Origin: Lachnospiraceae bacterium NE2001
GTDB lineage: Bacteria; Bacillota; Clostridia; Lachnospirales; Lachnospiraceae
Direction of reading: 5' to 3'
Length of the DNA stretch: 64,000 nucleotides
NCBI GenBank assembly: GCA_900110635.1
Contig: FOEK01000008.1
Coordinates: 62,001 to 126,000 of the forward strand
Position 1 is the stretch's first letter, and each line of letters begins with the position of its first letter. The notes under the pieces were generated by a model, which was given only the letters and a program-made list of their open reading frames with translations, searched no databases and was not told the origin of the DNA. Made by a program: the position numbers and the translations under genes. Of the stretch, positions 29,249 through 47,343 are shown in pieces.

Positions 29249-30121
29249 TTACTTTGTCTTCCGACAAACCCACAGCACGTTGTAATCATAGTCCGCAGGC
29301 CCGACAACTGGTTTTATCTTGTCATCATAGTTCTCTCCGCGGATTTCCGTTACAATAAGGCCTGCACGTTCCAGCAGCTCCTTCGAGTCCCTGCCGAAAA
29401 CCCTCAGGTGATCGTGCTGCCCGAAGCGACGGATTCTGTCTGCCTTTAACAAATCCCCCGCGACTTTCGATTCATCCCCACCAGCTTTCGGTTCATCCCC
29501 CGCGGCTTTCGACTCACCACCATCTTCGTAAACGGTTTCAAACTTCGTATCAACCGGAAATGATATAATTATCACCCCATCAGGTCGAACGATCCGGCGA
29601 AGCTCTCCTAGCGCTTTCCTATAGTCGGACACGTGCTCCAGGACGTGGTTACAGATAATTACATCATAGGAATCGTCTTCAAGACCAGTGTCCTCTATAT
29701 CAATCTTCAGGTCAGCAGGATTAAATAGGTCCGCTGTCACAGCTCTTACGTCGTGCCTATCCATCCATATACGGACAGAACGTTCCTGTGCAAAGTGAAG
29801 TATTTGCATATACTTAACCGTGTCTTCACACTTATACGTATCTTTATCTTTATTCGTGTCCTTATAAGTATCTTTATCTTTATTCGTGTCCTTATAAGTA
29901 TTCGTATCTTTATTCGTAAACATATCCAAATGATCGTTCATATAGGACACCAGTATCCCGCTGCCATAAGACGTGAGAACAGAACAGAAAGCATATCGAT
30001 ATATATGCTCTGTGGAATGAACAAAAAGAAGGATGCATATCAGGGATAAGGCCTTGAATACTTCATAAAAGAAAAACAGAGCTAGCATCACTTCACGCAA
30101 TGCCGCTCTGCAAAAGATCAT
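29249..30121 (-). CDS. Class I SAM-dependent methyltransferase with internal repeat insertions, possibly degenerate
   Basis: 290 residues. From about residue 105 it matches the LHFAPE-type methyltransferases (here LHFAQERSV), then VTADLFNPADLKIDIEDT, SYDVIICNHVLEHV and LRRIVRPDGVIIISFPV: motifs II-IV of the Rossmann fold. The usual N-terminal zinc-ribbon part is replaced by a membrane-helix-like segment (about 12-34) and a Lys/Asp/Thr/Tyr low-complexity tract encoded by 30-bp DNA repeats. A second repeat tract (21-bp units) interrupts the protein at about 203-222. The weak ribosome site and the insertions suggest decay or recent repeat expansion. Substrate unknown. Confidence 0.6.
   Translation of the reverse strand: MIFCRAALREVMLALFFFYEVFKALSLICILLFVHSTEHIYRYAFCSVLTSYGSGILVSYMNDHLDMFTNKDTNTYKDTNKDKDTYKDTNKDKDTYKCEDTVKYMQILHFAQERSVRIWMDRHDVRAVTADLFNPADLKIDIEDTGLEDDSYDVIICNHVLEHVSDYRKALGELRRIVRPDGVIIISFPVDTKFETVYEDGGESKAAGDEPKAGGDESKVAGDLLKADRIRRFGQHDHLRVFGRDSKELLERAGLIVTEIRGENYDDKIKPVVGPADYDYNVLWVCRKTK
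29464..29518. repeat. 21-bp tandem repeat inside the methyltransferase gene
   Basis: Two and a half units beginning CTTTCG (29464, 29485, 29506), in frame, encode a Gly-Asp-Glu-(Ser/Pro)-Lys-Ala/Val-type heptad. Confidence 0.75.
29831..29919. repeat. 30-bp tandem repeat inside the methyltransferase gene
   Basis: Units of exactly 30 bases begin at 29831 and 29861, with a partial third at 29891. They encode a Lys-Asp-Thr/Lys-rich decamer. The in-frame period means copy number change would not break the gene. Confidence 0.85.
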
Positions 30122-30142: not shown

Positions 30143-31087
30143 CTACCCTTTAAGGAACCAACTGTCAACCACCATTTTCAGGAAATCCAAGGTGTTTTTT
30201 ATCTTAATATTCCCTTTATAATAATCAATATGTTTGTAGGCTCGTTCCATAACCTCTTGAACTTTTTCAGATTCCGTTGTACTTATTCCTGAACTTGTCA
30301 CCATCATTTTATGAGTATATAACAAAGTTACTATTTGTTGTATTCTAGCATTACTCATACGATTTTTTCTAAAGTTTTTATTCATCCCATTTATTTTCAT
30401 TAGTGCTTTTGTCACATCATCACTAGTTCTGTGTTTTGCTGTTTTAGAACGAAGATCATTTAATATACAATTACTATGTGCAGCAGCATTTCTAATTTCC
30501 TTACAAGTAAGCAACCTATAAAAATCATCCTTCATTTTTCTGTCAGCAAATCTATCTGCACAAAACCCATAAAATGCCACCAAACGGCCAAAAGGTATTA
30601 TTTCAATAAAAGCCCATATCGGATACTCACCATCATATTTATCAATAATATCCCCACAATAAACATTTCCCTTATTGCGATTAATCTCACTATCGTATAT
30701 ATCCTTTTGATGTTCATCCAAAGAATCAATATAATCCCGAACAACAGAATAACCATCTTCAGATTTTTCCTCTATTTTTCTAAGCAACTTCAATTTTGTA
30801 TGATGTTCAATATCTAAAGCCATATGCACAATACGATATCGAAGTAGCATATCTATCACAGAAATATCTACTAAATAACCAAAATCCAGATTAATATATT
30901 TATCAGCATTTTTCCCATCAGGATGCTTGTCATAGTTTTTTCGATAAGCTGTAAGTTTAAAATAATTGTTATTATGGCGCAAATACTCCTTTGCAAATGT
31001 CTCATCCATAATAGCAAACTTAACGCCTTTTTCTTTAAGGTATATTATTTGATCATCAATTGAAAGTATAGGTTTATCATTCATCAT
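30143..31087 (-). CDS. Abi_2 (AbiD/AbiF-like) HEPN protein
   Basis: 314 residues with the Abi_2 layout: an N-terminal helical part with a YYFKLTAYR-like motif (here NYFKLTAYRKNYD), a central IWAFIEIIPFGRLVAFY segment and the HEPN RNase motif RNAAAH. Abi_2 proteins protect against phage by RNA cleavage during abortive infection in lactococci. I infer the same role. The start is one of two adjacent ATGs (31087) with AAAGG nine bases upstream; a TTG three codons earlier is less likely. It is monocistronic and flanked by repeat B. Confidence 0.75.
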   Translation of the reverse strand: MMNDKPILSIDDQIIYLKEKGVKFAIMDETFAKEYLRHNNNYFKLTAYRKNYDKHPDGKNADKYINLDFGYLVDISVIDMLLRYRIVHMALDIEHHTKLKLLRKIEEKSEDGYSVVRDYIDSLDEHQKDIYDSEINRNKGNVYCGDIIDKYDGEYPIWAFIEIIPFGRLVAFYGFCADRFADRKMKDDFYRLLTCKEIRNAAAHSNCILNDLRSKTAKHRTSDDVTKALMKINGMNKNFRKNRMSNARIQQIVTLLYTHKMMVTSSGISTTESEKVQEVMERAYKHIDYYKGNIKIKNTLDFLKMVVDSWFLKG

Positions 31088-31142
31088 AATATACAACCTT
31101 TTTCATACTAACATAAATCCCTAAATGACATATTAACTTGTA

Positions 31143-32435: not shown

Positions 32436-33776
32436 ATAAAAGCCTTTGATGATATAACCTTTTCATTAACATCCAAAAACGATAAAGCAAAGAATCTTGC
32501 AATCATATTCGGAGCAAACGGAAGTGGAAAATCTACAATTCTCGAATCATTTGCCACCCTATATGATTTATTACATACAAAAGATATCACAACCACATTA
32601 GATCTATTTAAAGAGAAGCTCTGCGATGATCATTCCATTGATACCGATGATATTACCGAATTATCAAAGTACTTATCCAGAGGATACACGTCAGTTTCTA
32701 CTATATACAAAAAAATCAAAGGAACTTCCCCCAATGATCCAACTTCCATAATTATAGAATTTGAGGAAAACGGTTTTAATGGTTCCTTTGAAATAAGACT
32801 CTTCAACAAACACATTATTTATGAAGAATTAAAATATGTTATTCATAAAAATAAGGGATGCTATTACAAAATAGATGAAAAAAATGTTGTCATAAACGAC
32901 AAAGTAATACTTGACAAGAAACTTGTTGATAAACTTACTAATCTTGTTAAGCAATCCTGGGGCGTTCACAGTTTTATCTCTATAATAAAAAACGAATTAT
33001 CTAACTATAACTCATCTTACATCAAAGAATCATTTATCGATAATTTCATAACAATACTTAATTGTTTTGACCAGTTTAGTTTTAGAATATGCAGTTCTTC
33101 AAACACCATCGAAGGCCTAAGCAAAACAAATACATATCTCCTATCACATATTGATGGAGGTAAAATGGAAAAAACAAGTTCTAACGAACTGGCAGAAACA
33201 GAAAAAACGCTTACAAAAGTACTAAAACCCTTTGTAGATGACTTGATTAAATTAAAATACGTTAAAGAAAAAGACAATTATAGTTTAATGATTATCAAAA
33301 AGATAAATAATAAAGAGACAACGATTGATTTTTCAAACGAATCCAACGGAATCAAAGAATTGGTAAGCCTTCTCCCATATGTCATTAGAGCAATGAATGG
33401 TGAAAATGTCATACTTGATGAATATGCAAATCATATTCACGATGTTATATCAATATTATTCTTAGAAACAATATTTCCATATATACACGGACAAATCATA
33501 TTATCAACGCACAACTCTATACTTTTAAATCAATTATCGGATCAGTTCATAGAGAGCTTTTATTTTGTTAAAGTTATGGATTCTTTAAGAAGTATAGACT
33601 GTATTACTGACATAGAGCCCCGAATACGTAAGGAGTATAATTATCAGAAAAAATACATTTCTGATGATATATATTTGAAATATAGAAATAATGCACGACA
33701 CGGTACCAAGGAATCATCGTTGGTTAACACTCAAAAAGAATTAATGAAACTAATCAGCACAAACACTCAAAAATAG
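32433..33776 (+). pseudogene. AAA ATPase (AAA_15/AAA_21, OLD-like), 5' truncated
   Basis: The frame is open from 32385 and codes a P-loop ATPase from about 32433: FGANGSGKSTILESF is Walker A (around 32508-32550), and NGENVILDEYANHIHDV is Walker B. QIILSTHNSILLNQL is the switch/His segment of SMC-like or overcoming-lysogenisation-defect ATPases. No ATG, GTG or TTG occurs in frame before the Met at 33165, which lies after Walker A, so the N-terminal strand and start codon are missing. The C-terminus looks complete. Proteins of this type act in abortive infection or retron-like defence. This copy is probably dead or would need a rare start codon. Confidence 0.7.
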
Positions 33777-34190
33777 CGAACCATAAATACTTTTACGCTC
33801 AACAGATAGGAAACTGCTTTGCTTTTTCTCATCCGTTGAGTGTATGTATCTAATCTTTATAAAACTATAGAGTATTTAGTATGATAATATGAAATAAATT
33901 CTTTTGGATGTTCTATCATAAGTTATCTCTCTAATTGAAACCACCTACAATAGGTGATGTATAATCTGTATCATCAAAAAAAGGGTATATATTCCAGTAA
34001 GAAAATTCCATTAGATTTATCAAGCTGGAATATATATTCTTCAACCAAAGCATCGCTTATAGCAAAGATTGTTTATTCTGAAACATTACTTCTCCCAATC
34101 TCCCCATACGAATATTTGGCATGTCATCACACTTTTCGTATAAAATCAAAGCACCCACTCCAAAGTGGATGCCTAAGAATCGTCTGTAAA
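33777..34190. other. Intergenic stretch with inverted repeats
   Basis: It holds a 9-base inverted repeat with one G-T pair near 33793-33842 and a perfect 12-base inverted repeat (33986-33997 with 34025-34036, long loop). A small CCACT/AGTGG stem lies near 34155. An 82-codon frame at 33954-34202 is not convincing. No gene was recognised. Confidence 0.4.
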
Positions 34191-34207
34191 TGTTGTGATT
34201 AGCAACA
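34191..34207. promoter_or_regulatory. Upstream operator of HTH-Ugd copy 1
   Basis: TGTTGT-N5-GCAACA, a 17-base inverted repeat, 48 bases before the -35 box. The same architecture recurs downstream of the promoter at 34321-34337. Confidence 0.65.
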
Positions 34208-34255
34208 TTGCAAAGGCACTCATAAGCAATTCAAACTATTATTCGAACAAAACTA

Positions 34256-34283
34256 TTGACTATTTTAGATTTTTTGTTATAAT
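34256..34283 (+). promoter_or_regulatory. Promoter of HTH-Ugd copy 1
   Basis: TTGACT (34256-34261), 16-base spacer, perfect TATAAT (34278-34283). It is 75 bases ahead of the start codon and lies between two operator-like repeats. Confidence 0.85.
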
Positions 34284-34320
34284 CTACATAATTTTATACC
34301 TATTCAATCAGCACAACATA

Positions 34321-34337
34321 TGTTGTGTTTTGCAACA
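34321..34337. promoter_or_regulatory. Downstream operator of HTH-Ugd copy 1
   Basis: TGTTGT-N5-GCAACA again, 20 bases before the start codon and overlapping a perfect 16-base palindrome (34312-34327, CACAACAT/ATGTTGTG). In this position a bound protein would block elongation or the ribosome site. Confidence 0.65.
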
Positions 34338-34357
34338 TTTCCCAAAGAGGTGACAAT

Positions 34358-35857
34358 ATGAAAGAACTATCTCTAAAGTTATTATCAGAAACCATAATCT
34401 CAAAAAGAAAGATCAAGAATATGACTCAGCTTGAGCTTTCAAAAGCAACTGGACTAAACAGATCCACACTTAGTAAAATCGAGTCGATGGAACATACCCC
34501 ATCTGTAAATCAGCTTCAGGCACTTTCAGAAGTACTTGAGTTTGATACAAAGGAACTGTTCGTTGATCCTAATACAACTAAAAAAACAATAAATAAACAG
34601 TATAAAATAGCTGTTGCTGGAACTGGTTATGTAGGCTTATCTCTGGCAGTACTACTTTCCCAGCACAACATTGTTACCGCTGTGGATATAATCCCAGAGA
34701 AGGTTGAGAAGCTAAAAAACTACATATCTCCTATTCAGGATGAATATATAGAGAAATTCTTAGAAGAAGCAAAAGCAGGAAAGCGCCAGCTTAACCTTAC
34801 TGCTACAACAGACGGAGCAACAGCATATAAGGACGCAGACTTCATAATTATAGCAGCACCAACAAATTATGATCCTAAGAAGAACTTCTTTGACTGTTCA
34901 GCTGTAGAATCAGTTATAGATCTTATCCTTGAGGTTACAAAAGACAGAAAGGATAAGCCAACCATTGTAATTAAGTCAACAATCCCTGTTGGCTATACCA
35001 AGTCCGTACGTGAAAAGTTCAGTGCTGACAATATAATCTTCAGCCCAGAGTTCCTGAGAGAATCAAAGGCCCTGTATGACAACCTGTACCCAAGCAGAAT
35101 AATCGTCGGATGTTATGATGGAATAAAAGACAAAGCTGAAATCTTTGCCGCCCTGCTCCAGCAAGGCGCAATCAAGAACCCTGTAGACACTCTGATTATG
35201 GGATGTACCGAAGCAGAGGCAACAAAGCTCTTTGTCAACACATATCTCGCACTTCGAGTTTCATATTTCAACGAGTTAGATACATACGCAGAGGTGAAAG
35301 AGCTTGACACAGCATCCATCATCAAGGGCGTATGTCTAGATCCACGAGTTGGCGACTATTACAACAATCCGTCATTTGGATACGGCGGCTACTGTCTGCC
35401 AAAAGATACAAAGCAGCTTCTGGCCAACTACAACGATGTTCCACAGAACATGATGACAGCCATCGTTGAAAGCAACAGGACCAGAAAAGATTTTATCGCA
35501 GATCGCGTGCTTCAAATGGCTGGATATTATAATTATAGCGATGAAAATGACTTTAACAGAAATCTAGAGAAAGAAATAGTAGTCGGCATATATAGATTAA
35601 CTATGAAATCTAACTCAGACAACTTCCGTCAATCCTCTATTCAGGGAGTTATGAAGCGAATAAAAGCAAAGGGAGCTACTATAGTTATTTATGAACCAAC
35701 TCTAAATGATGGAGAAACATTTTTCGGTAGTAAAGTTGTAAATGATTTAGACACATTTAAACAAACTTGCAATTGTATCATCGCAAATAGATATGATTCA
35801 TCTCTTGATGACGTAAAAGAAAAAGTATATACACGAGATTTATTTATGCGCGATTAA
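34358..35857 (+). CDS. HTH-UDP-glucose 6-dehydrogenase fusion, copy 1
   Basis: 499 residues. Residues about 8-62 are a Cro/C1-type helix-turn-helix ([21 protein letters not shown], then a [14 protein letters not shown] helix). After a short linker, residues about 82 to the end are a complete short-form Ugd of about 390 residues. It has NAD motif [20 protein letters not shown], the [12 protein letters not shown] loop and catalytic Cys in [10 protein letters not shown] (about residue 343). The C-terminal VYTRDLF is also present. It should oxidise UDP-glucose to UDP-glucuronate with two NAD+ and also bind DNA. I start at 34358, where GAGGTGA lies eight bases upstream. Promoter and two operator-like repeats precede it, a terminator follows, so it is monocistronic. 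Confidence 0.9.
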
Positions 35858-35911
35858 CCATCTACGCAGACTCTTAAATCAGACGCAAAAAAGTACGACA
35901 CTAAAATATAG

Positions 35912-35946
35912 AAGCTCGAGGAGTAGATCACCCCTCGAGCTTTTTG
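35912..35946 (+). terminator. Intrinsic terminator of HTH-Ugd copy 1
   Basis: A perfect 10-bp stem (35912-35921 with 35933-35942) followed by TTTTTG. It lies 55 bases after the stop codon. Confidence 0.9.
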
Positions 35947-36024
35947 TTATTTCTGCCACTTAATTATGTCATATAAAAAATGGTTTTTGAAAAAATCTTG
36001 CAAGTGTCTGATCTAATTTGCATA

Positions 36025-36113
36025 TTCCGGTCAAACTGCATGACCTTTCCGATTTGAACTGCACGGGCATTCCGGAGCGAACTGCATAGCATTCCGCCAC
36101 AACTGCACGTGCT
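36025..36113. repeat. IS21-type terminal multiple repeats
   Basis: Four direct copies of TTCCG-N4/6-AACTGCA start at 36025, 36047, 36070 and 36092 (period 22-23). IS21-family ends carry such transposase-binding repeats. Here they precede a broken istA. Confidence 0.75.
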
Positions 36114-36180
36114 CTTGATTTAGTGTTATAGTTCTTTTCGTAGTCAAACAAAACAAACTACGGAAAGGAGGCATGTAATC

Positions 36181-37317
36181 ATGCAAGACTACAACACTAT
36201 TGTTGGCGTAATTCAAATGCGCCATAATGATTGTTCATTTAGTGTCATTCAGAAGAGATATCATATCGGCTCAGGAACAGCTCAGCTGATTCTAAAATGG
36301 TTTGATGCTTCTGGACTTACATTGGACGAACTCAGGGCTATGGAGCCCCATACTGTGGAGGATTTGTTTTATCCTCCGGAAAATCTCCAGAGAAGAGATC
36401 TTCCTCTGCCTGATTTTCAGTACTATTATGACCGTATTCATTCCCCCAAAAGCAAGGTGAATATATCCTATTGCTGGATTGAATACAAACAGGAACATCC
36501 TGACGGCTATGAGCAGTCCCAGTTCTACGAGCTCTATAACAGGTTTGTAGAAGAAAACTATGGCAAAAGTGATATCAAGATGGCTGTAGAACGTGTTCCT
36601 GGTGAAAAACTATATATAGACTGGGTTGGTGACCAGCCAGAACTCTTAGTGGATCTGGATACTGGTGAAATCAAGAAAATCCTATTCGAGGTATGACGCT
36701 TTTGAAAAGTACGATAAACCGTGTATGAAACCACTGCCAGGCGGAACATTTGCGGTATGCGACTATAAAGCTGTCACTAAAGTCCCTGATAACTATCACA
36801 TAGAGTATGATGACCACTACTACTCAGTAGTGTACACCCATTGTGGTAAGCCTGCAATTCTTAAGGCTGCAGCATCAGAGATACGTATTTGTGATCAGTA
36901 CAATAGACTGATCTATAAACATAGAAGGTCTTATGCAAAGTTTCCGCTCTATGTGACGGAAGAGAACATATGAGACCTGAACACCTTTATTACAAAGAAG
37001 TTAATGCCAAGGATGGTGCTTACTATAGACGCTGGGCATCTGTGTTTGGCCCAAACATGTCCGAATACATAGATAGGCTTCTAAAAGCTCAGAAACATGA
37101 GGAACAGGCTTACAATTCATGTGTCGGTATTCTTCACTCTGTTAAAGAACTACCTCATGGTATTGTTGAGGAAGCAGCTCGTCAATGTATTCAAATGAAT
37201 TCCTGTAAATATAAAACATTCAAGCAGGTTTTAAGCCGGATTCAAACAGGAACAGTTAGTCGTGATGATAACCTTCCTGAACACGATAACATCCGGGGAA
37301 AGGGCTTCTATAAGTAA
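36181..37317 (+). pseudogene. istA: istA transposase with internal deletion
   Basis: The first 170 codons (36181-36696) are the IstA N-terminus with helix-turn-helix and the first catalytic Asp in LYIDWVGDQPELLVDL. The frame then stops. From about 36686 another frame continues with YDAFEKYDKPCMKPLPGGTF and the beta-barrel C-terminal region, then a third frame from 36970 to 37317. The segment holding the second Asp and the Glu of the DDE core is absent, so the gene is dead. AAAGGAGG precedes the original ATG. Confidence 0.85.
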
Positions 37318-37329
37318 AGGTGATCTTCT

Positions 37330-37548
37330 ATGGCATACAGACAAAAAGACTATACATACAATCCAAATCTAAATAGTGACGAGAATCTTCTGCTTGATAA
37401 ACTATTTAAGTTAAAGCTTTCACATATGGCAGAAGAATTAGAACGTCAGCTACTTAATCCTAATTCAGAACTTCTAGTCAAGTTATTCTATATTATTATT
37501 CTTTCAACCGTAAATATATGTCTATCCATTATTATAATGCATAAATAA
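37330..37548 (+). pseudogene. istB: istB helper ATPase, N-terminal stub
   Basis: The first about 50 codons match the IstB start (LLDKLFKLKLSHMAEELERQ), the helical region before the AAA core. The sequence departs after NSELL, and the Walker motifs are missing. It begins 12 bases after istA, the normal IS21 spacing. Confidence 0.75.
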
Positions 37549-37886
37549 AAAAATCTATTATTCTTTTCAAAACACTAGTACAATTCATCAGCATATATTG
37601 TATACAGGTAATTTAATGCTAATTTATCTAGGAAATATATAACATATATTTACACCACTTCCCCAAATGTATCCGGTCTTTCTGGATTAAATACTTCATT
37701 ACATGTCATCACTGTTACTAAATTTTCTGTTTCAGACAGATTAATGATATTAGCGGTATCCGATTGCGGATTGGTGGTACGCCCAGCGCGGAATATTCAT
37801 TCATAATGCTTATAGGATGGAATTCAACGGAAGGAATATGAAAAATACTACCACGTAACTCGTAAACAAGACCTATAATAGTCAGA
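37549..37886. other. Decayed stretch, no intact gene
   Basis: A minus-strand frame near 37660-37740 reads VTVMTCNEVFNPERPDTF before a stop, probably the C-terminal end of a lost gene that I cannot name. The rest is not recognised. Confidence 0.35.
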
Positions 37887-38515
37887 TTAAGTGAACACGC
37901 GGTCAGCTCGCCCGAATTTAGCAATCCGGAAAATCTTCTCTATAAGTTTAATTATATTTCCCACACTTATGGCTGCTATAATACTTCCTTCCCTGACTCC
38001 CTCAAGACGCCCAAGGAATATGAAGCATATTGCTGCTGCAATCAGTATATATATTATATCGAACAATATCTTTATGTTCTCATATTTTTTTCAGTTACCT
38101 GCGCGATAGCAAGGTTCATAGCTTCCCCGGGAAGCATTGCCACCTTTCCCTTCAGCTGTATCCATAATCCTAATGCCAGAACAAAACATCCGATTGCCAT
38201 ATACATAAGCTGCATCGGATATGAGCTCACAGTAAGATTTCTTATAATATAACAGGACAGATTTGTCAGATATCCGTAAACAAAGGTAAGCACCGTCTGC
38301 ACGAATATTTTAAGATAATTAACCTTTCCCTTAAGCACCAGAACCTGCGTTGTGATTTGAGTAATACTTAGAAGATTCAGCCATCCGCCAAACGTCAGCA
38401 AACTACTTACAAGAGAGACGGAATACGGAATCGAGGAAACCGGCGAAGTCCCAAGTCCGGCCTTCGTTGAAAACGCCACTCCCAATGATGCAATAAAAAG
38501 TCCAACTAAAAACAA
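37887..38515 (-). pseudogene. YczE/YitT-like membrane protein, frameshifted
   Basis: The frame from 38515 gives FLVGLFIASLGVAFSTKAGLGTSPV-type membrane helices and KVAMLPGEAMNLAIAQVTEK, then stops at 38072. With one extra A in the A7 run (about 38085-38091) the reading continues as KYENIKILFDIIYILIAAA, FLGRLEGVREGS and on to a stop at 37887. These are the expected remaining helices of this family. The 5' end also lacks a normal start: the codons before it run into the stop of the neighbouring glycosyltransferase. Either a real frameshift or an assembly error in the homopolymer. Confidence 0.75.
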
Positions 38516-38524
38516 TACATAGCG

Positions 38525-39484
38525 CTATATCAAACTCCTGTCATGCAACCTTTTCATAATTATCTTTTTACATTTAGAAAAAGGTCTACATATATCTGAT
38601 AGGCAAATATATGGAACATGACTTTCCCGACTCATTCTTAAGTATCTGAAACCTGATTCAATTCCATATTGTTTCATAGTTTTTAAGGATTTGAACAAAC
38701 ATGATTGGGCTACATATTTCCAATCGCTTTTTTTCAATGAATCACGTAAGAACATCCATCGATTGCAATGAACTACATGTCTGATAAAGAACTCCTTCTC
38801 CTGCTCCTCAATAGATTCTTTTAGAGCTGTTAATGAATGATTACTTCTAGTCACGCAATAAATACTCTCTTTACTTGCATCTATAGTATTTGCTGCCATT
38901 CCAATTTTAGCAGAAAACATAACATCATTAGAATATAAAGTTGTATCAAATTGAATTCCTCCATTTAATACTATTTCACGACGAATTAGTTTTGACCATG
39001 GAACTGTACTCTTACACCTTAACGTAATTTCAGATCCTTTCTGTCCGTTCAGATAATCGTTAATAAATCTACAATAACTCCTATGTCGATTAGCCATCGA
39101 CCCATCATCCAAATTTTGGCTTATAGGACAAAAATATATTATATCTGCATCACTGTTAGTATATTTTTGTATAATATCATACCAACCTTTCAGCATATAA
39201 TCGTCGGCATCAGCAAAAAGTAACCATTTGCCATGCGCATAATCAAGACCAATGTTTCTACACGCTCCAGCACTTTGAATTCCACTATCATTTTTTAGAA
39301 ATATTATACCTTTACAATTATATTTTTTTTCGACCAAATGATAATCTTCAATATATTTTGTGGAGTTATCATCTATAACTATTATTTCAACCCCTGGATT
39401 ATCGCCAATAGAATCAAGTAGTTTTTCCAATAATCTAGGCGAATTATAATGTGGGATGATAATACTTAATTCATATTCACTCAT
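38525..39484 (-). CDS. Glycosyltransferase family 2
   Basis: 319 residues with a GT-A fold: SIIIPHYNSPRLLEKLLDSI at the start, VIDDNST, QSAGACRNIGLDYAHGKWL and the LFADADDYML DxD motif (about 90-97). The C-terminal half is basic and helical. It transfers a sugar from a nucleotide donor, and specificity cannot be read. GAGAGGAT precedes the ATG. It is the only intact polysaccharide gene in this decayed strip, so it is probably a remainder of an older locus. Confidence 0.85.
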   Translation of the reverse strand: MSEYELSIIIPHYNSPRLLEKLLDSIGDNPGVEIIVIDDNSTKYIEDYHLVEKKYNCKGIIFLKNDSGIQSAGACRNIGLDYAHGKWLLFADADDYMLKGWYDIIQKYTNSDADIIYFCPISQNLDDGSMANRHRSYCRFINDYLNGQKGSEITLRCKSTVPWSKLIRREIVLNGGIQFDTTLYSNDVMFSAKIGMAANTIDASKESIYCVTRSNHSLTALKESIEEQEKEFFIRHVVHCNRWMFLRDSLKKSDWKYVAQSCLFKSLKTMKQYGIESGFRYLRMSRESHVPYICLSDICRPFSKCKKIIMKRLHDRSLI

Positions 39485-39993
39485 TCATATCCTCTCTATT
39501 ATATAACTCTATATTTATCCCTTTTGCTAATTCCAACAAAACCTCATAACACCTTTCATGTCTAGATTTATATTATGAACTTTCTGCATTTTTTATTTGC
39601 TGTATTATATTAAGCATGCAAACTCTCGACGAGTCCATTTGATTATATTATATCCAAGTAATAAAACTCTATCAATCTCTTCCTATGATATGATATTTCT
39701 ATTTATTTTTCTATTTAACGAATCCAATGTATCTTTATATACATTCCCATCAATAACACGCCAAGACTCATAATATGGTCCATTATAGTTAGCTAGTATT
39801 TCGCAAGGATCTTCAACTTCAACTCGTTGAACAATATAACCTGATTTGGCATTTTCAACAGAAAGAATCCATTTTATTTGATATGAATATGCTCCTCTGG
39901 AATCAATTTCTGATTTTATTTCTTTATATGATAATTATTCTTCTCTCACTTTCTATTTCCTCTTTTATCTATTTTCTAATTTATAAACCATAT
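39485..39993 (-). other. Decayed stretch with one unnamed fragment
   Basis: A minus-strand frame from about 39945 to 39690 contains YSYQIKWILSVENAKSGYIV and PCEILANYNGPYYESWRV before a stop. It has no start and I do not recognise it. The remainder is AT-rich without genes. Confidence 0.35.
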
Positions 39994-41524
39994 TTAATAT
40001 TCTATTTCATTATCATCTTCAAATCTAAAAATATATCCTCCACTTGTTCCTTTTTTATAACAACAATTATATATAGCACTATCAGAAACACTATAATATC
40101 GAGATGCTTCTGAAACACTTTCATAACGAGCTACTAAATCTTTTTCTAAAGAAAAACAAAGTACCGGTCTTTTTCTAGGATTCCCTTTTATTGATCTAAA
40201 TTGTTTAATATTTTGTTTTTTGGAATATTCTCTATCGTATGGAGTATATCCATATTTCACGCCTTCATCTAAGTAATGAATCACCATAGAAAAATCCATC
40301 CCAAATTCTTTTGCTATTTCTGAAGCTAATATTGGAGCATTTTTTTCATAATATTTGCATACTTTATGTAATTTTTCCATTTTTTTCCTATGTCTTTTAG
40401 TATCAATGTATTTTGTTTTATAATATAAATCTTTAACATAAGAACACCAATTATACACTTCACCCCTTTTTATGTATCTTTGAGCAGTCGATTTACCAAT
40501 ATTACAATCAATAGCTAGTTGTTCTATTGTTATTGGTTTATGACTCTCATAATACATACAAACATATTTTACATAATTTGAGATTGCAAACTGATCTGCC
40601 ACATCCCAATCAATTTTATCAAGACTACAGTAATCAGATATAGCAGCCTCTATATTAAGTTTAAGAAATTCCTTTTCAGAACATGTCGCATCTATTCTAA
40701 CAACAGATATACCTTTCCTTTGGGCCTGATTATCCTTCCATTCATCTATTAACTTTGTTTCTTCTGGAGAAATGGAGTTATTCCTTGTTTTGTTTCCATG
40801 CCCCAACCCTCCATCCATCTCAATAATTATGCCTTGCTTATCATTTTTATTTAGATATATTATAAAATCATATTGTCTGTTATCAAGCCAATCATCATTG
40901 AATTCATTATCAAATGCGAAAATCTCTTTTTCTTTTAAAAGCTGTTCACATACCGAAAACATAAATTTATTTGGATAGCTAAATCCATCACCACATACAC
41001 AGCCAATACTTCTAGTTCTATACAAGGTATCTATGTACATTTTTTTCTTTTTTTATTCGTCCACAATCAGGACAAACAAGATTAATTTTATCTTTTCTGT
41101 TGCCATGATAATACTCTTTTGCAAGTTCTTTATTAATAAAAAATGGTATCATCCATGGATCTGTAGTAGTTATATCATTGACCCCCTCAATCACTATATT
41201 CCCATGACAAATAGGACAACACCCAGAATCATTTATATTATATTCACTAAGTTCATTTATACCCGGCCTCCCACATTTATTACAAATATATTTATACGCT
41301 CTACTTTTTCCATTTTTAGATCTAACTAATTCTGTTATTGTAATATCCGTTTTTCCAGCAACTATTCTTTCCCCTACTGAATACTTATGATCAAAAGTGA
41401 TGGAGCCAGTAATCTTATCAAGAGAACATGTTCTTAAAGCAACACATGATATTGAGTCTTGTTTTCCATCTATATCAATTAATAACCTACGGCCATCATA
41501 CGGAAGTATAGTAATGCTACCATT
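39994..41524 (-). pseudogene. Vsr/EDxHD-like homing endonuclease, frameshifted and 5' truncated
   Basis: From 41524 one frame codes a zinc-ribbon region with paired Cys (ICNKCG, CCPICHGN, LVCPDCGR). It leaves frame in the A-rich tract at about 41041-41053, where removing one A joins it to the frame starting at 41040. That frame gives CVCGDGFSYPNKFMFS, YDFIIYL, IIEMDGGLGHG and RKGISVVRID: a Vsr-like nuclease core. Two HTH segments and a C-terminal NUMOD1-like region (SVSEASRYYSVSDSAIYNCC) follow. Such proteins are selfish homing nucleases. The 5' end is cut at the join with a capD fragment. The downstream 348 codons are intact and could be expressed alone. Confidence 0.65.
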
Positions 41525-41653
41525 TTTGCTGCCTCAGGGATTGTCACGAAGTATCTAATTATATCAGGATGGGTTACTGTAACTGGACCGCCGTGCGCTA
41601 TATGTTCCTTAAAGAGTGGAACAACTGAACCTGAACTGCCAAGTACATTTCCG
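41525..41653 (-). pseudogene. Fragment of CapD/PseB-type nucleotide-sugar dehydratase
   Basis: On the minus strand: [34 protein letters not shown] and [10 protein letters not shown], which is the late Rossmann region of CapD/WbpM-like 4,6-dehydratases. About 43 codons remain and both ends are joined to unrelated fragments. Confidence 0.8.
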
Positions 41654-41659
41654 GTTAGT

Positions 41660-42020
41660 GGAAGGCGTGATAAAATCTATATCGCCCAAAGTTCGTCTTG
41701 CCGGTTCAGGATAATACATTGCAGCAGCCATTCTTTTAAATATCGCAATCGGAATGCCTCTCGAACGGAACCTTTGAATCAACTCACCTTGTTCATATGC
41801 CACTTGCAAAAAATGTGCCATATTCTGATTAGATATATCTGCCCACTTTTGTCAATGCTCATTTGGAATGCTACGTTCTAATAATGCCACGACGCAATGA
41901 GATTTTGCTATCTCATATACTGTATCCCAGTTTACTTTAACAGGAATTACAAGCTCTGTAGAAAACATGAATGATTTTATTAATTCTATAAAACAAAGTT
42001 GTTCATTATTTAAGTTTAAT
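41660..42020 (-). pseudogene. Nucleotidyltransferase-like (NTP_transf_5) fragment
   Basis: Minus-strand reading ELVIPVKVNWDTVYEIAKSH, an in-frame TGA at 41852-41854, then IPIAIFKRMAAAMYYPEP and [10 protein letters not shown]. The K(G)MAxxxYYPxPxxRxxxDIDF pattern is that of NTP_transf_5 proteins often found in polysaccharide loci. The gene then breaks into the capD fragment and also lacks a start. Confidence 0.7.
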
Positions 42021-42091
42021 TAAATATCTCCTTCTTTGGATGGAATAATCGATTAAAATGTTCTATGTATCACACTAAAACGCGCCCAGTT

Positions 42092-42108
42092 TGTTATCAT
42101 TCATAACA
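42092..42108. promoter_or_regulatory. Upstream operator of HTH-Ugd copy 2
   Basis: TGTTAT-N5-ATAACA, a perfect inverted repeat, 19 bases before the -35 box. It has the same geometry as the copy 1 operators but a different third-from-centre base pair (TA in place of GC). Confidence 0.65.
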
Positions 42109-42127
42109 CGAGTTCATCGGTTATTTA

Positions 42128-42155
42128 TTGACTTATCCCTATTTAGTGGTATAAT
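42128..42155 (+). promoter_or_regulatory. Promoter of HTH-Ugd copy 2 and epimerase
   Basis: TTGACT (42128-42133), 16-base spacer, TATAAT (42150-42155): the same boxes and spacing as the copy 1 promoter. Confidence 0.85.
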
Positions 42156-42188
42156 CAAGTATACAAATTGTAAATAAACCAATCAAAA

Positions 42189-42205
42189 TGTTATAACTCG
42201 TAACA
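42189..42205. promoter_or_regulatory. Downstream operator of HTH-Ugd copy 2
   Basis: TGTTAT-N5-GTAACA, one mismatch from a perfect repeat, 22 bases before the start codon. Its distance to the -10 box and to the ATG nearly equals that in copy 1. Confidence 0.65.
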
Positions 42206-42227
42206 AAATAAAAATGGAGGATATGAT

Positions 42228-43733
42228 ATGAAATCTTTATCTACACAATTATTATCTGATACTATATCTTTCAAGAGAAAATCTCTGAACCTTACTCAAG
42301 CTAATGTTGCAAAATTAACCGGTATCAATAGAGCTATCATCAGCAGAATAGAATCTCAGGACTACACACCTTCTGTAGATCAATTACTTTCTTTATCAGA
42401 TGTACTGGATTTTGATATAAACACTCTATTTATCTCAAAAGATGTTTCTAATTCATATAATATAGATAAAATATATAACATAGCTGTCGCAGGAACAGGC
42501 TATGTAGGTCTGTCACTCGCCGTATTACTCTCTCAGCACAACAAAGTCACTGCCGTTGATATTATTCCCGAAAAAGTTGAGAAGTTAAATAATTATATAT
42601 CTCCTATCCAGGATGAATATATAGAAAAATTCCTTGATGAAGCTAAAACCGGGAAGAGGAAACTTGATCTGACCGCCACAACAGATGGCGCATCAGCGTA
42701 TAAAAATGCAGATTTCATCATAATAGCTGCGCCAACTAATTACGACCCAAAAAAGAATTTCTTCGACTGTTCTGCTGTTGAAGCAGTTATAGAACTAATA
42801 CTTGAATCGACAAAAGACAGCAAATCCAAGCCAACTATTGTTATTAAATCAACTATACCAGTAGGTTACACTGAATCTATCCGCAAAAAATACAACGCAG
42901 ATAATATAATATTCAGCCCGGAATTTCTAAGAGAATCCAAGGCATTATATGATAACCTATATCCATCAAGAATAATCGTTGGTTGTGATGATAAAACCAA
43001 AGAAAAAGCAGAACTTTTTGCAGCCCTGCTTGAGCAGGGAGCTATCAAAAATCCTATAGAAAAACTATTTATGGGATTTACTGAAGCAGAAGCAACAAAG
43101 CTCTTTGTAAATACATATTTGGCACTTAGAGTATCTTACTTCAACGAGCTTGATACATATGCTGAGGTAAAAAATCTTAATACAGCTTCCATCATCAAAG
43201 GCGTATGTTTGGACCCAAGAGTTGGTGATTATTATAATAACCCATCTTTCGGATATGGAGGATATTGCTTACCAAAAGATACTAAGCAGCTACTCGCAAA
43301 CTATAATGATGTGCCACAGAATATGATGACTGCTATAGTTGAAAGTAATAAAACAAGAAAAGACTTTATAGCAGACAGAGTCCTTGAAATAGCTGGAACT
43401 TACGGAAATAGTGACAGTTACTCCTATGAAAAAGAATCAAAACAACGCGAAACGGTTGTCGGTGTTTACAGATTGACTATGAAATCCAACAGTGATAACT
43501 TCCGCCAATCATCTATTCAAGGAGTAATGAAAAGAATCAAAGCAAAGGGTGCTACAGTGGTAATATATGAACCTACGCTTGAAGACGGTAGTACATTCTT
43601 CGGAAGTGAAGTAATAAATGATTTGAATAAATTCAAAAAGAAATGTGGTTGTATAATTGCAAATAGATATGATTCTACACTTGATGATGTAATAGAAAAA
43701 GTTTACACAAGAGACTTATTTAGAAGGGACTAA
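42228..43733 (+). CDS. HTH-UDP-glucose 6-dehydrogenase fusion, copy 2
   Basis: 501 residues, the same architecture as copy 1: Cro/C1-type helix-turn-helix (about 8-60, [21 protein letters not shown]) and complete Ugd (NAD motif GTGYVG near residue 87, catalytic Cys in [10 protein letters not shown] near 346, C-terminal VYTRDLF). The enzyme part is very close to copy 1. The HTH is clearly more diverged, including the recognition helix (NRAIISRIE against NRSTLSKIE). GGAGG precedes the ATG. The next gene, a UDP-glucuronate epimerase, starts five bases after the stop, so this copy serves UDP-GlcA to UDP-GalA conversion. Confidence 0.9.
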
Positions 43734-43738
43734 ATTCA

Positions 43739-44833
43739 ATGAAAAATAACAAGACAAAAATAGATTTAAATAATAGAACAATTCTTGTCACCGGAGGAGC
43801 TGGATTTATAGGTTCCAATTTGATACTCCGCCTGCTTAAAGAAATGACATCCGGTACAATTCTTAATATCGACAGTATGAATGGCTATTATGATACTGAT
43901 TTAAAGAAATATAGACTAAATCTAATACAAGATGCCGCAAAAAACAGCGACGTAAACTATGTATTTATTAAAGGCAATATAGCTGACAGCAATCTTCTCA
44001 GAAATACATTTACCAATTATAAGCCATCTATAGTTGTTAATCTCGCTGCCCAGGCAGGTGTAAGATACTCTATAGATCATCCTGACGCATATATAGAAAG
44101 CAATATCATAGGATTCTATGGAATACTTCAGGCTTGCAGATATAGCAAAGATAATGGACACGAAGGTGTAGAGCACCTTATATATGCATCATCTTCTTCT
44201 GTATATGGCGGCAATAAAAAAGTACCATTTAGCACAGATGATAAAACAGATAATCCTGTATCATTATACGCAGCAACAAAAAAATCAAACGAGTTACTAG
44301 CTTACAGTTATTCAAAACTATATAACATACCTTCAACTGGTCTCAGATTCTTCACTGTATATGGACCAGCCGGTCGACCAGATATGTTCTACTACTCTGC
44401 TACTGAGAAGCTCGTAAGAGGCGAAAACATAAAAATATATAACTATGGAAATTGCAAAAGAGATTTTACCTATATAGACGATATAGTTGAAGGTATTATC
44501 AGAGTCATGAAGGGAGCGCCTGAAAAGCAAACCGGCGAAGACGGTCTCCCTATAGCTCCTCAAGCTCTATATAACATAGGTGGTGGTACCCCAGAAAACC
44601 TTCTGGATTACATATCTACATTACAGGAAGAACTTGTGAGAGCAAAAGTACTTCCAGAAGATTATGACTTCGAAGCACATCGAGAATTAGTAGGTATGCA
44701 ACCTGGTGATGTTCCTGTAACATATGCAGATAGTAAACCTCTAGAAGAAGATTTTGGTTTCACACCAAGTATTAATATACAAGAAGGGTTAAGAAATTTT
44801 GCTGAGTGGTATAAAAACTATTACAAAGCTTAA
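43739..44833 (+). CDS. UDP-glucuronate 4-epimerase
   Basis: 364 residues, an extended short-chain dehydrogenase. It has NAD motif GGAGFIGSN (about 19-27), NLAAQAGVRYSI, SSSSVYGGN, catalytic YAATK and LRFFTVYGPAGRPDM. The AAQAGVRYS and YGPxGRPDM motifs are typical of UDP-glucuronate 4-epimerases (Cap1J/LspL/GAE). It converts UDP-GlcA to UDP-GalA. It is co-transcribed with the HTH-Ugd upstream (five-base gap, AAGGG ribosome site), forming a two-step pathway from UDP-glucose. Confidence 0.9.
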   Translation: MKNNKTKIDLNNRTILVTGGAGFIGSNLILRLLKEMTSGTILNIDSMNGYYDTDLKKYRLNLIQDAAKNSDVNYVFIKGNIADSNLLRNTFTNYKPSIVVNLAAQAGVRYSIDHPDAYIESNIIGFYGILQACRYSKDNGHEGVEHLIYASSSSVYGGNKKVPFSTDDKTDNPVSLYAATKKSNELLAYSYSKLYNIPSTGLRFFTVYGPAGRPDMFYYSATEKLVRGENIKIYNYGNCKRDFTYIDDIVEGIIRVMKGAPEKQTGEDGLPIAPQALYNIGGGTPENLLDYISTLQEELVRAKVLPEDYDFEAHRELVGMQPGDVPVTYADSKPLEEDFGFTPSINIQEGLRNFAEWYKNYYKA

Positions 44834-44976
44834 CGATTCTCTTATTCAACATTAAGTCGAACTCTAATATTGTATATTAGCTTATGTAAATGATACTATA
44901 AAAATGTCGTAAAAGTGGAAAATAAAAATGTAGGTTTCCGCTAAGAGTGATATCCTTTTCCGTGGAGGTAAAAACC

Positions 44977-46040
44977 ATGGAACAGACACTTATCACTCAA
45001 CTAAAAATTCTTAAATTGAGCAATGTTAAACCTAACTTTGCTGAACTGGCTCGGATATATGATCTAGATTGGCGAACCATCAAAAAGTATTATGACGGAT
45101 ACGATGGTAAACCCAAGCATCATTCTAAGCCTAGTAAACTTGATAAACACAAACAGCTTATTACTAAGAAACTCGCCATTAAAGGTTCCAATGTCAGAGT
45201 TGTTTATGAATTCATAATAGATGAGGTGGATCCGGATATTGGAACCTACTCAAACTTTCAAAAGTACATCAAATCCAGAGGACTAAAACCCAAGAAAAAT
45301 TCAAAAGGTCACCCTAGATTTGAAACAGAGCCAGGCATTCAGGCTCAAGTTGACTGGAAAGAAGACATTTCCATTGCCAACTGTTACGGAGAAATCTTCA
45401 CCTTTCAGGTGTTTGATTATAAACTGGGCTATTCTAGATACCCCATCTTTACTTACAAACTTTATAAGACAAGACAGGATGTATTCGGCTGCTTAATCAC
45501 TTCTTTTAAAGCAACCGGTGGAGTACCTAGAGAAATCCTTTTTGACAACATGGCGTCCGTAGTGGATCTAAAAGGTAATCATCGACATGTAAATGAAAAG
45601 ATGAGAACCTTTGCCAAAGACTTTAACTTCAAAATCAAACTTTGCAAACCTCGTCATGCCTATACAAAAGGTAAGGTTGAAGCTCTTAATAAGTTCCTAT
45701 CGTGGATTTATCCATATCAGGGTGAGTTCGAAACTGAGGAACAGCTTATAGCAATCCTTGAAAAAATCAACCAGAAGGTATGCAAACGTATATGTGATGA
45801 AACTGGAGTTCAACCTCTTCTTTTGTTCCAAAAAGAAAAGGAATACCTACAGTCATTGCCAAGTAACGAAGTTATCGAATCTTATCTTCCCCACGATCGC
45901 CAAACCACGGTTAGAAAGGATTCAATGGTTACCTTTAATAAGTGTAAGTATTCCGTACCACCAGCCTACATTGGTAAGCCTGTAAGATTACAGGTCAAAT
46001 CCGATAAGCTGTGTATCTATTATAGCACGGATTTAATAGC
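44977..46040 (+). pseudogene. istA: istA transposase (second IS21-type element), 3' truncated
   Basis: About 355 codons of an IstA-type transposase. An N-terminal HTH is followed by the complete DDE core (VDWKED, ILFDNM, GKVEALNKF) and the start of the C-terminal barrel (KYSVPPAYIGKPVRLQV). Similarity ends at about 46040. The frame stays open by chance for another 1.1 kb antisense to wecB, so the apparent 746-codon protein is an artefact. GGAGGT precedes the ATG at 44977. No istB follows. It is different from the 36-kb istA. Confidence 0.85.
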
Positions 46041-46059
46041 TGGAAACATTTTTCTTTCA

Positions 46060-47178
46060 TTACGGCTCCCAGGGAGTGTATTCCTTCCCTTCAAGGATGT
46101 CTGCTATACGTTCGCAAGCGTGACCATCGCCGTAGGGGTTCACAGCGTGTGCCATCTTGTTATATTCGTTCTTATCCTCAAGCAGCAGCTTAAAAGTCCT
46201 ATAGATTGTTTCCTCGTCGGTTCCCACCAACTTCAACGTTCCTGCCTCCACACCTTCTGGACGCTCGGTTGTGTCACGCATGACCAATACCGGTACACCG
46301 TAAGAAGGGCACTCCTCCTGGATTCCGCCGGAATCAGTCAGGCAGAGGAAGCTGCGGGCTTCAAAGTTATGACAATCGAATACCTCAATCGGCTCGATAA
46401 TGTGGATACGATCGCAGTCACCCAGCTCTTCATCTGCAGCCTGTCTTACCACAGGGTTCATATGAATCGGATATACGGCCTTACAATCCGGATGTTCATC
46501 AAGCACACGACAAATTGCTCGGAACATGTGATGCATCGGCTCTCCGAGGTTTTCCCTGCGGTGGGCAGTGATAAAGATCAGCTTGTCTTCACCAACCCAA
46601 TCCAGTTCTGGATGGGTATAGTCCTCCTTCACCGTATGCTGCATAGCATCAATGACGGTGTTACCTGTTACATAGATGCTGTCTGGATTGCGACCTTCAT
46701 GGAGGAGATTATTTCGGCTCAAAGGTGTCGGTGCGAAGTTATATCGGCTGACAATGGACACAGCTTCGCGATTAAACTCCTCCGGATAAGGAGAATAGAT
46801 ATTATAGGTCCTGAGTCCCGCTTCTACATGACCGACCGGAATCTGGAGATAGAAGCACGCCAGAGCTGTAACAAAAGTTGTCGACGTGTCGCCGTGAACG
46901 AGAACCACATCCGGTTTCTCCTTCTCCAACACTTCCCTGATACCATTCAGGATATTCGTTGTAATGTCGAACAGCGTCTGACGGTCCTTCATAATATTGA
47001 GGTCGTAGTCTGGTGTGACGTCGAAGGTCTTGAGGACCTGATCCAGCATCTGCCTATGCTGGGCTGTGACGCAGACAACGACCTCAAGGCCTTCTCTCTT
47101 CTTCATCTCCACAACCAGAGGACACATTTTGATTGCCTCTGGTCTTGTCCCGAATACGGTCATTACTTTTTTCTTCAT
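46060..47178 (-). CDS. wecB: UDP-N-acetylglucosamine 2-epimerase (non-hydrolysing)
   Basis: 372 residues. It has VFGTRPEAIKMCPLV at the start, VHGDTSTTFV, HVEAGLRT, FITAHRRENLG and DSGGIQEECPSYGVPVLVMRD: the full WecB/MnaA set. It interconverts UDP-GlcNAc and UDP-ManNAc, used for wall linkage units and ManNAc-containing polysaccharide. It is the last gene of the polysaccharide locus, and its stop codon lies 20 bases from the IS21 remnant. I choose the start at 47178 with AGGAG-type sequence upstream; the longer frame begins 25 codons earlier without support. Confidence 0.95.
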   Translation of the reverse strand: MKKKVMTVFGTRPEAIKMCPLVVEMKKREGLEVVVCVTAQHRQMLDQVLKTFDVTPDYDLNIMKDRQTLFDITTNILNGIREVLEKEKPDVVLVHGDTSTTFVTALACFYLQIPVGHVEAGLRTYNIYSPYPEEFNREAVSIVSRYNFAPTPLSRNNLLHEGRNPDSIYVTGNTVIDAMQHTVKEDYTHPELDWVGEDKLIFITAHRRENLGEPMHHMFRAICRVLDEHPDCKAVYPIHMNPVVRQAADEELGDCDRIHIIEPIEVFDCHNFEARSFLCLTDSGGIQEECPSYGVPVLVMRDTTERPEGVEAGTLKLVGTDEETIYRTFKLLLEDKNEYNKMAHAVNPYGDGHACERIADILEGKEYTPWEP

Positions 47179-47194
47179 AAGTCCTAACTCTCCT

Positions 47195-47215
47195 AGCCCA
47201 GCCCACCGCTGGGCT
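47195..47215. other. GC-rich hairpin upstream of wecB
   Basis: A perfect 8-bp GC-rich stem (47195-47202 with 47208-47215), just before the wecB ribosome site in a 165-base gap after rfbC. There is no T tract. It may be a processing or attenuation stem. Confidence 0.45.
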
Positions 47216-47343
47216 GTTAGCATGTTATCCGTTTCTTGATGGACACAATACAACCATCGTAGTTCTAATGTCGTTGACGATCAGCCACCTCGATTAGTGG
47301 CCTTCGGCTTATGGAAGCACTGATTATTTCTTCTCTTCTTCCT

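Follow-up and report, generated by a model that had tools for sequence, protein, structure and literature searches.

Two genes of the window, the 64,000-nucleotide stretch of Lachnospiraceae bacterium NE2001 DNA that was analysed, encode a UDP-glucose dehydrogenase (Ugd) preceded by a helix-turn-helix (HTH) domain in the same protein. Comparison with other fused and unfused ugd genes indicates that this HTH-Ugd is probably bifunctional, an enzyme and an autoregulator that most likely represses its own promoter (a reading to which we give a probability of about 0.8). The fusion, the intact enzyme motifs, a palindromic operator tied to the fusion and the position of this operator relative to a promoter, recognized by its consensus only, are what the sequence analysis shows. 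From them, autoregulation appears well supported and a repressor function probable.

In the single frame of gene 1, an HTH of the lambda-repressor type is joined by a variable linker to a complete Ugd of the S. pyogenes type, whose motifs are intact. In Pfam, HTH_3 matched residues 15–66 (E = 6e-11, 42.6 bits for a cut-off of 23), and the N, central and C domains of UDPG_MGDP_dh matched residues 83–254, 285–374 and 410–487, each above its cut-off. TIGR03026 (NCBIfam) also scored above its cut-off, while the best NCBIfam score was that of the Ugd model PRK15057 (NF011631), with 525 bits for gene 1 and 524 for gene 2, yet below its cut-off of 757; this cut-off was presumably chosen with close enterobacterial forms in mind, TIGR03026 being the broader model. 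Ranked by E-value, the best PDB matches are the Ugds of Klebsiella (3phl/3pid) and of S. pyogenes (1dli), which align from residue 82 or 83 to residue 499, and Ugds of this type (1dli, 3phl) share the full enzyme part, motifs and fold with HTH-Ugd. They differ by the absence of the HTH, the best aligned stretch beginning at residue 76 or later of the gene 1 protein in 30/30 of the matched PDB sequences.

The AlphaFold2 model of the gene 1 protein (mean pLDDT 80, pTM 0.66) placed HTH helices at residues 6–19, 24–31, 35–42, 50–60 and 64–67, with ten-residue pLDDT means of 83–96, followed by a low-confidence linker (residues 71–80, mean pLDDT 61). The best fold match of the modelled enzyme part was 1dli, with pLDDT below 50 in some stretches, including 233–242 and 332–348, and low confidence in the stretch of the Cys346 motif as well. 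An HTH_3 score above the gathering threshold and a predicted five-helix fold both assign the gene 1 HTH to the Cro/C1 (XRE) type. The uninterrupted frame with a strong ribosome site, in which the original prediction had seen a Cro/C1-type HTH preceding a full-length Ugd, was therefore borne out by the ORF, Pfam and the model. A terminator-like hairpin and a T run follow gene 1, which therefore probably forms a unit by itself. No RNA elements reached the gathering threshold in 33700–44900.

Table. Positions in the window of the two fused genes and of the features predicted around them.
Feature	Position	Strand	Description
Distal operator of gene 1, TGTTGTGATTAGCAACA	34191..34207	.	palindrome, from sequence comparison
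Predicted sigma-A-type promoter of gene 1, between the operators	34256..34283	+	TTGACT, 16 bp, TATAAT
Proximal operator of gene 1, TGTTGTGTTTTGCAACA	34321..34337	.	palindrome, from sequence comparison
Ribosome-binding site AAAGAGGTG	34344..34352	+	read upstream of gene 1
Fused gene 1, HTH-Ugd, 499 aa	34358..35857	+	ATG at 34358, stop codon ending at 35857; Pfam, PDB matches, AlphaFold2 model
HTH domain of gene 1	34373..34558	+	model helices within residues 6–67; recognition helix 35–42; Ser36
UDP-glucose dehydrogenase domains of gene 1	34604..35854	+	residues 83–499
Terminator-like hairpin and T run	35910..35944	+	predicted -19.5 kcal/mol
Distal operator of gene 2, TGTTATCATTCATAACA	42092..42108	.	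palindrome, from sequence comparison
Predicted promoter of gene 2, between the operators	42128..42155	+	TTGACT, 16 bp, TATAAT
Proximal operator of gene 2, TGTTATAACTCGTAACA	42189..42205	.	palindrome, from sequence comparison
Fused gene 2, HTH-Ugd, 501 aa, Ala36	42228..43733	+	
NAD-dependent epimerase/dehydratase-family gene, immediately 3' of gene 2	43739..44833	+	

The second fused copy, with a palindrome pair of its own, did not figure in the text of the original prediction. Its product is identical to that of gene 1 at 38/70 HTH residues and 355/418 enzyme residues. It is separated by 5 nt from the epimerase/dehydratase-family gene, whose product is probably a UDP-glucuronate epimerase, the substrate being deduced. 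Of the 72 fused loci checked, 23 have a gene of this family immediately 3' of the fused one and in the same orientation; 69 of the 72 include at least 600 nt of downstream DNA. Two unfused ugd genes are found on the same contig, outside the window.

The fusion is widespread. Genes were classed as fused or unfused with an HTH profile (HTH found in 26/26 fused controls), which gave 89 distinct fused genes with profile E ≤ 1.8e-17. The carriers with names are Bacillota, described as gut and rumen bacteria, and include Ruminococcus albus 8, Eubacterium ramulus ATCC 29099, Ligilactobacillus salivarius DSM 20555, Streptococcus alactolyticus and Enterococcus; the contig search covered the best 80 of 423 relatives. 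In the first enzyme tree, every fused entry whose origin is named was likewise from Bacillota. In drawn genome samples, counted from match lists, fused matches were obtained in 10/61 genomes of the genus (one split at the linker), at least 36/397 of the family (one with an internal stop), 5/391 of the class, 5/297 of another order of the class, 13/325 of the order of an Enterococcus genome (G1219; two with a far-diverged head) and 1/398 of the phylum, this one being the own genome. Plasmids of Butyrivibrio fibrisolvens D1, Enterococcus hirae and E. faecalis also carry the fusion, annotated as nucleotide sugar dehydrogenase. The database search that had been proposed for the HTH_3 plus UDPG_MGDP_dh architecture thus finds it to be recurrent, in the family, in other Bacillota and on three plasmids. 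Phage relatives, among the best 10 of 31 records, start at residue 79–83 and so are without the HTH.

On the enzyme tree the fusion was clustered, with 6 changes vs 28.6 for shuffled labels (L039, a fused gene, being scored as unfused), and a larger enzyme tree gave 12 changes. Relatives without the HTH occur inside fused groups, e.g. S. suis L102 and L087. The change counts would fit few gains with repeated losses, but do not by themselves separate gain from loss. A second Ugd-coding stretch starts at most 1600 nt 3' of the fused one in L165 (24 nt), L163 and L044 (both partial), where fused and unfused enzyme may share one promoter.

Both parts of the protein are conserved. The enzyme motifs checked (GxGYVG, KSTxPxG, EFLRE and a KxFx-type motif) were present in 45/45 proteins, allowing for single-position variants, and six motif patterns were found in 89/89 fused genes, four of them being informative because the other two (Rossmann and GYGGYC) had been used to select the 89. 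By domains and motifs, the fused proteins are thus likely to be UDP-glucose 6-dehydrogenases. In the HTH, R17, Q24, E42 and Q52 were invariant in 28/28 aligned sequences and T31, G32, I33 and R35 were conserved at 90% or more; the turn and recognition-helix residues are conserved across Bacillota families. The most variable part is the linker, and 83 to 130 residues of the protein (median 86) precede the Rossmann motif.

Upstream of the fused genes lies a 17-bp palindrome, TGTYRY-N5-RYRACA, often in two copies flanking a predicted promoter. The two palindromes that had been named as binding sites for gene 1 are present and perfect in their outer five bases at either end; at this location the pattern far exceeds chance. 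The starting pattern GTTRY-N5-RYAAC, read from the upstream DNA of genes 1 and 2, occurred exactly in the 260 bp upstream of 24/45 distinct fused genes (32 sites; both window copies are among the 45) and of 0/40 unfused genes, for a mean of 0.14 and a maximum of 2 in shuffled sequences. Among spacers of 0–15, only 5 was enriched (24/45 genes vs 0 or 1 for the 15 others). A symmetric 21-bp matrix with the core TGTYRYTWWWARYRACA was then built from 46 training fused genes, drawn from plus-strand matches of the loci. Held-out scoring with relatives removed recovered sites in 44/46 training genes (29 with at least two), for 0.6 in shuffles. The threshold of 10 bits was chosen after the first matrix scoring, thresholds of 8–11 giving 44 or 45/46 fused and 0/39 unfused genes.

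With this matrix, at least one site was found in 44/45 training genes kept, 32/44 other fused genes and 0/109 unfused genes (Fisher 2e-23), and at least two sites in 18 of the 44 fused genes outside training. Over the first 75 residues, each of these 44 stays below 90% identity to every training gene; counting four near-identical pairs once gives 30/40, and setting aside the three plasmid genes, which have two sites each, gives 29/41. The final count omits L070 (fused, one site in an earlier scoring), L091 and L204, whose Rossmann motif is off pattern, as well as loci without a full-length Ugd frame, and L187, the same gene as L062, is counted once. The same profile detected no HTH in the 700 nt that precede the ugd genes of an earlier unfused set. 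On the tree, six independent pairs on starred branches differed in fusion, and the operator followed the fusion in 5.5 of them on average and never went the opposite way (median p 0.03, range 0.03–0.125). Taken together, these comparisons suggest that the palindrome is the cognate operator of the fused XRE-type domain.

No site above threshold was found in 12 of the 44 fused genes outside training. The recognition helix is altered in five of them (L168, L193, L230, L231 and L245) and unaltered in the other seven, three of which score 9.1–9.6, just below the threshold. L230 and L231, from the order of G1219, encode a Ugd with a clearly different head (ISRSS helix) and are without the operator; this head may be far diverged or separately acquired. 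L245 combines an altered helix, DMNRGMICRLE, with another palindrome, TGTGATAATTTATCACA, located some 106 bp upstream, possibly a switched operator code.

The arrangement of the sites points to repression. Among two-site genes with a scorable promoter (n = 41, from a 70-gene fused set, with promoters ranked by a consensus score of our own), the best promoter lay between the two sites in 36, vs 21 expected if evenly placed. The centre of the site nearest the gene was at a median of 36 bp before the start codon (66 genes), and in most of the 41 genes, as well as in both window genes, this site follows the predicted -10 box. This is a repressor layout, because the gene-proximal site lies downstream of the -10 box. 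DNA looping was considered and rejected, the site spacing being without 10.5-bp phasing (R 0.11); the best scanned period, 11.2 (R 0.42), was unconvincing.

Of the helix positions compared, residue 36, which is second in the modelled recognition helix, accounts for the most operator variation. Among 75 genes with sites, A at half-site base 5 reached a fraction of 0.91 in the 25 Ala36 genes and G at this base a fraction of 0.51 in the 33 Ser36 genes, while C at half-site base 4 reached 0.65 in the 7 Gly36 genes. The commoner purine at base 5 was A in 23/24 Ala36 genes; in Ser36 genes it was G in 16 and A in 11. The window copies agree, gene 1 having Ser36 with TGTTG and gene 2 Ala36 with TGTTA. 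When the tree is considered, the Ala/Ser36 difference provides 3 starred independent pairs (1.8 in the same direction, 0.1 opposite, median p 0.5) and Gly36 with C at base 4 also 3 pairs (median p 0.5), so that the link is only suggestive, with too few independent contrasts to reach significance. The notion that the enzyme could be its own regulator thus finds strong comparative support in a palindrome that stands before fused but not unfused ugd genes and usually flanks the predicted promoter, whereas its variation with residue 36 is unproven on the tree.

A broad regulon is not supported. In the 3.72-Mb own genome, the strict 17-bp pattern has 10 sites vs 6 for a control pattern; four are the pairs before the two fused genes and the remaining six fall within mechanically called ORFs. 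A looser 15-bp pattern gave 83 vs 65. Nine other genomes, G004 and G1223 counting as one since their site lists are identical, positions included, totalled 52 strict sites vs 40 for the control, a small excess: sites were fewer than control in G004, G748 and G577 and 2–6 more in G029 and G1218–G1222, where part of the excess consists of sites before the fused gene itself. In the flanks of the fused loci, 11 strong matches lay outside the 260 bp before the gene, vs 1 in one shuffle. Those in L016, L045 and L075 are near the same promoter and those in L031, L038 and L074 just inside the gene; three in L030, one in L043 and one at 32886 in the window are further off. On sequence grounds, the most economical view is of a protein acting chiefly on its own gene, or on a two-gene unit with the epimerase; a small regulon with a few further targets in some species is possible.

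UDP-glucuronate feeds the capsules and exopolysaccharides of many bacteria. In the explanation we prefer, HTH-Ugd would be a working UDP-glucose dehydrogenase and at the same time a dedicated regulator, most likely a repressor, of its own promoter. Dimers would bind TGTYRY-N5-RYRACA at two places, 5' of the promoter and in the interval separating it from the start codon. As Ugd protein accumulates, it would thereby shut off its own synthesis and set the level of UDP-glucuronate, and of its epimer where the epimerase gene follows. The joint difference between Ser36/TGTTG and Ala36/TGTTA would keep the loops of the two paralogues apart. DNA binding, action as a dimer and catalysis are what we infer for this protein, and the choice of repression over activation is drawn from the position of the sites. 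The fused protein might instead activate its promoter, or act both ways from the distal and proximal sites, the distal ones being 5' of the predicted promoter, a possible position for an activator; given the proximal sites 3' of the -10 box, we consider this unlikely. It appears quite improbable that another HTH protein of the cell binds the operators, with the fused HTH otherwise employed, e.g. in enzyme placement or dimerising. The own genome does contain three weak matches to other HTH stretches of the fused-HTH class, but the site accompanies the fusion from family to family and in the tree, is absent before all unfused ugd genes scored and tracks the fused recognition helix. Conservation of the turn and recognition helix, together with the operators kept, makes it very hard to believe that an accidental fusion left the HTH behind as a functionless relic, as the few relatives without it inside fused groups might suggest.

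An autoregulatory enzyme of this kind could respond to its own ligands. Control of DNA binding by UDP-glucose, UDP-glucuronate or NAD state, as put forward in the original prediction, is plausible, and these, including NADH, are candidate signals. In the most elaborate form, a one-protein metabolic thermostat, occupancy by UDP-glucose/NAD+ or by product would set the affinity for the own operator, with paralogues using separate residue-36 operator codes; we hold this to be a real possibility, at somewhat less than even odds. The supply of uronic-acid precursor would then be tuned by the very enzyme making it, in independent paralogue loops. A narrower form of the preferred explanation, about which we are a little more doubtful, is that the HTH simply counts Ugd protein and that ligand leaves DNA affinity unchanged. 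The variable linker would free the HTH from active-site movements and negative autoregulation requires no ligand, but the fusion of the HTH to the enzyme, rather than a separate repressor, suggests as a general argument that the enzyme state matters.

HTH-Ugd is thus a candidate trigger enzyme, for which comparative evidence strongly favours a role in DNA binding and expression. Other enzymes of this type differ in their DNA-binding fold, a ribbon-helix-helix in PutA and a winged helix in BirA, while NadR combines an HTH with enzyme domains and represses NAD genes, its enzyme and pathway differing from those of HTH-Ugd. As proposed for HTH-Ugd, a metabolic enzyme doubles as a transcriptional repressor in PutA and BirA, which act on operons of their own pathways (PMC6978683), although enzymes and pathways differ. 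Closer in architecture is BzdR, in which an XRE-type HTH is joined by a linker to a shikimate-kinase-like domain whose kinase activity is lost, and which binds its operator and represses, controlling benzoate degradation genes; Q1, an artificial fusion of an HTH with E. coli shikimate kinase, was built as a missing link for BzdR (PMC3602430). HTH-Ugd differs from BzdR by its retained enzyme motifs and an apparent target that is its own gene, and from Q1 by being natural. It would represent a natural and widespread case of an XRE-type HTH on a motif-intact enzyme, a step that the BzdR work built artificially. As an enzyme switching its own gene it would further offer control in compact form, and on three plasmids it is annotated only as nucleotide sugar dehydrogenase. 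The statement that no Ugd of this type is described held for the open-access literature searched by titles and abstract openings, but the architecture is common in the family of the window.

The surroundings of the two genes show several further features. Transposase-like pieces lie 3' of both fused copies (36181–37317 and 44947–47187). The first appears IS21-like by eye, and its ORF 36181–36696, the sole one tested, is without a Pfam match. The second is a 746-aa ORF with Mu-transpos_C_2 and integrase-core matches, and looks like a broken insertion element because it overlaps the opposite-strand ORF 46060–47253. Upstream of gene 1, 32460–33776 (+) resembles an interrupted ATPase-like gene by eye (33165–33776 is without a Pfam match); the lone operator-like site at 32886 (18.7 bits) is inside it. 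An Abi_2 (Abi-like) protein, encoded at 30143–31096 (-) and possibly involved in phage defence, adjoins polysaccharide genes, and 29249–30121 (-) encodes a methyltransferase-family protein with an N-terminal run of KDTNKDKDTY-like repeats.
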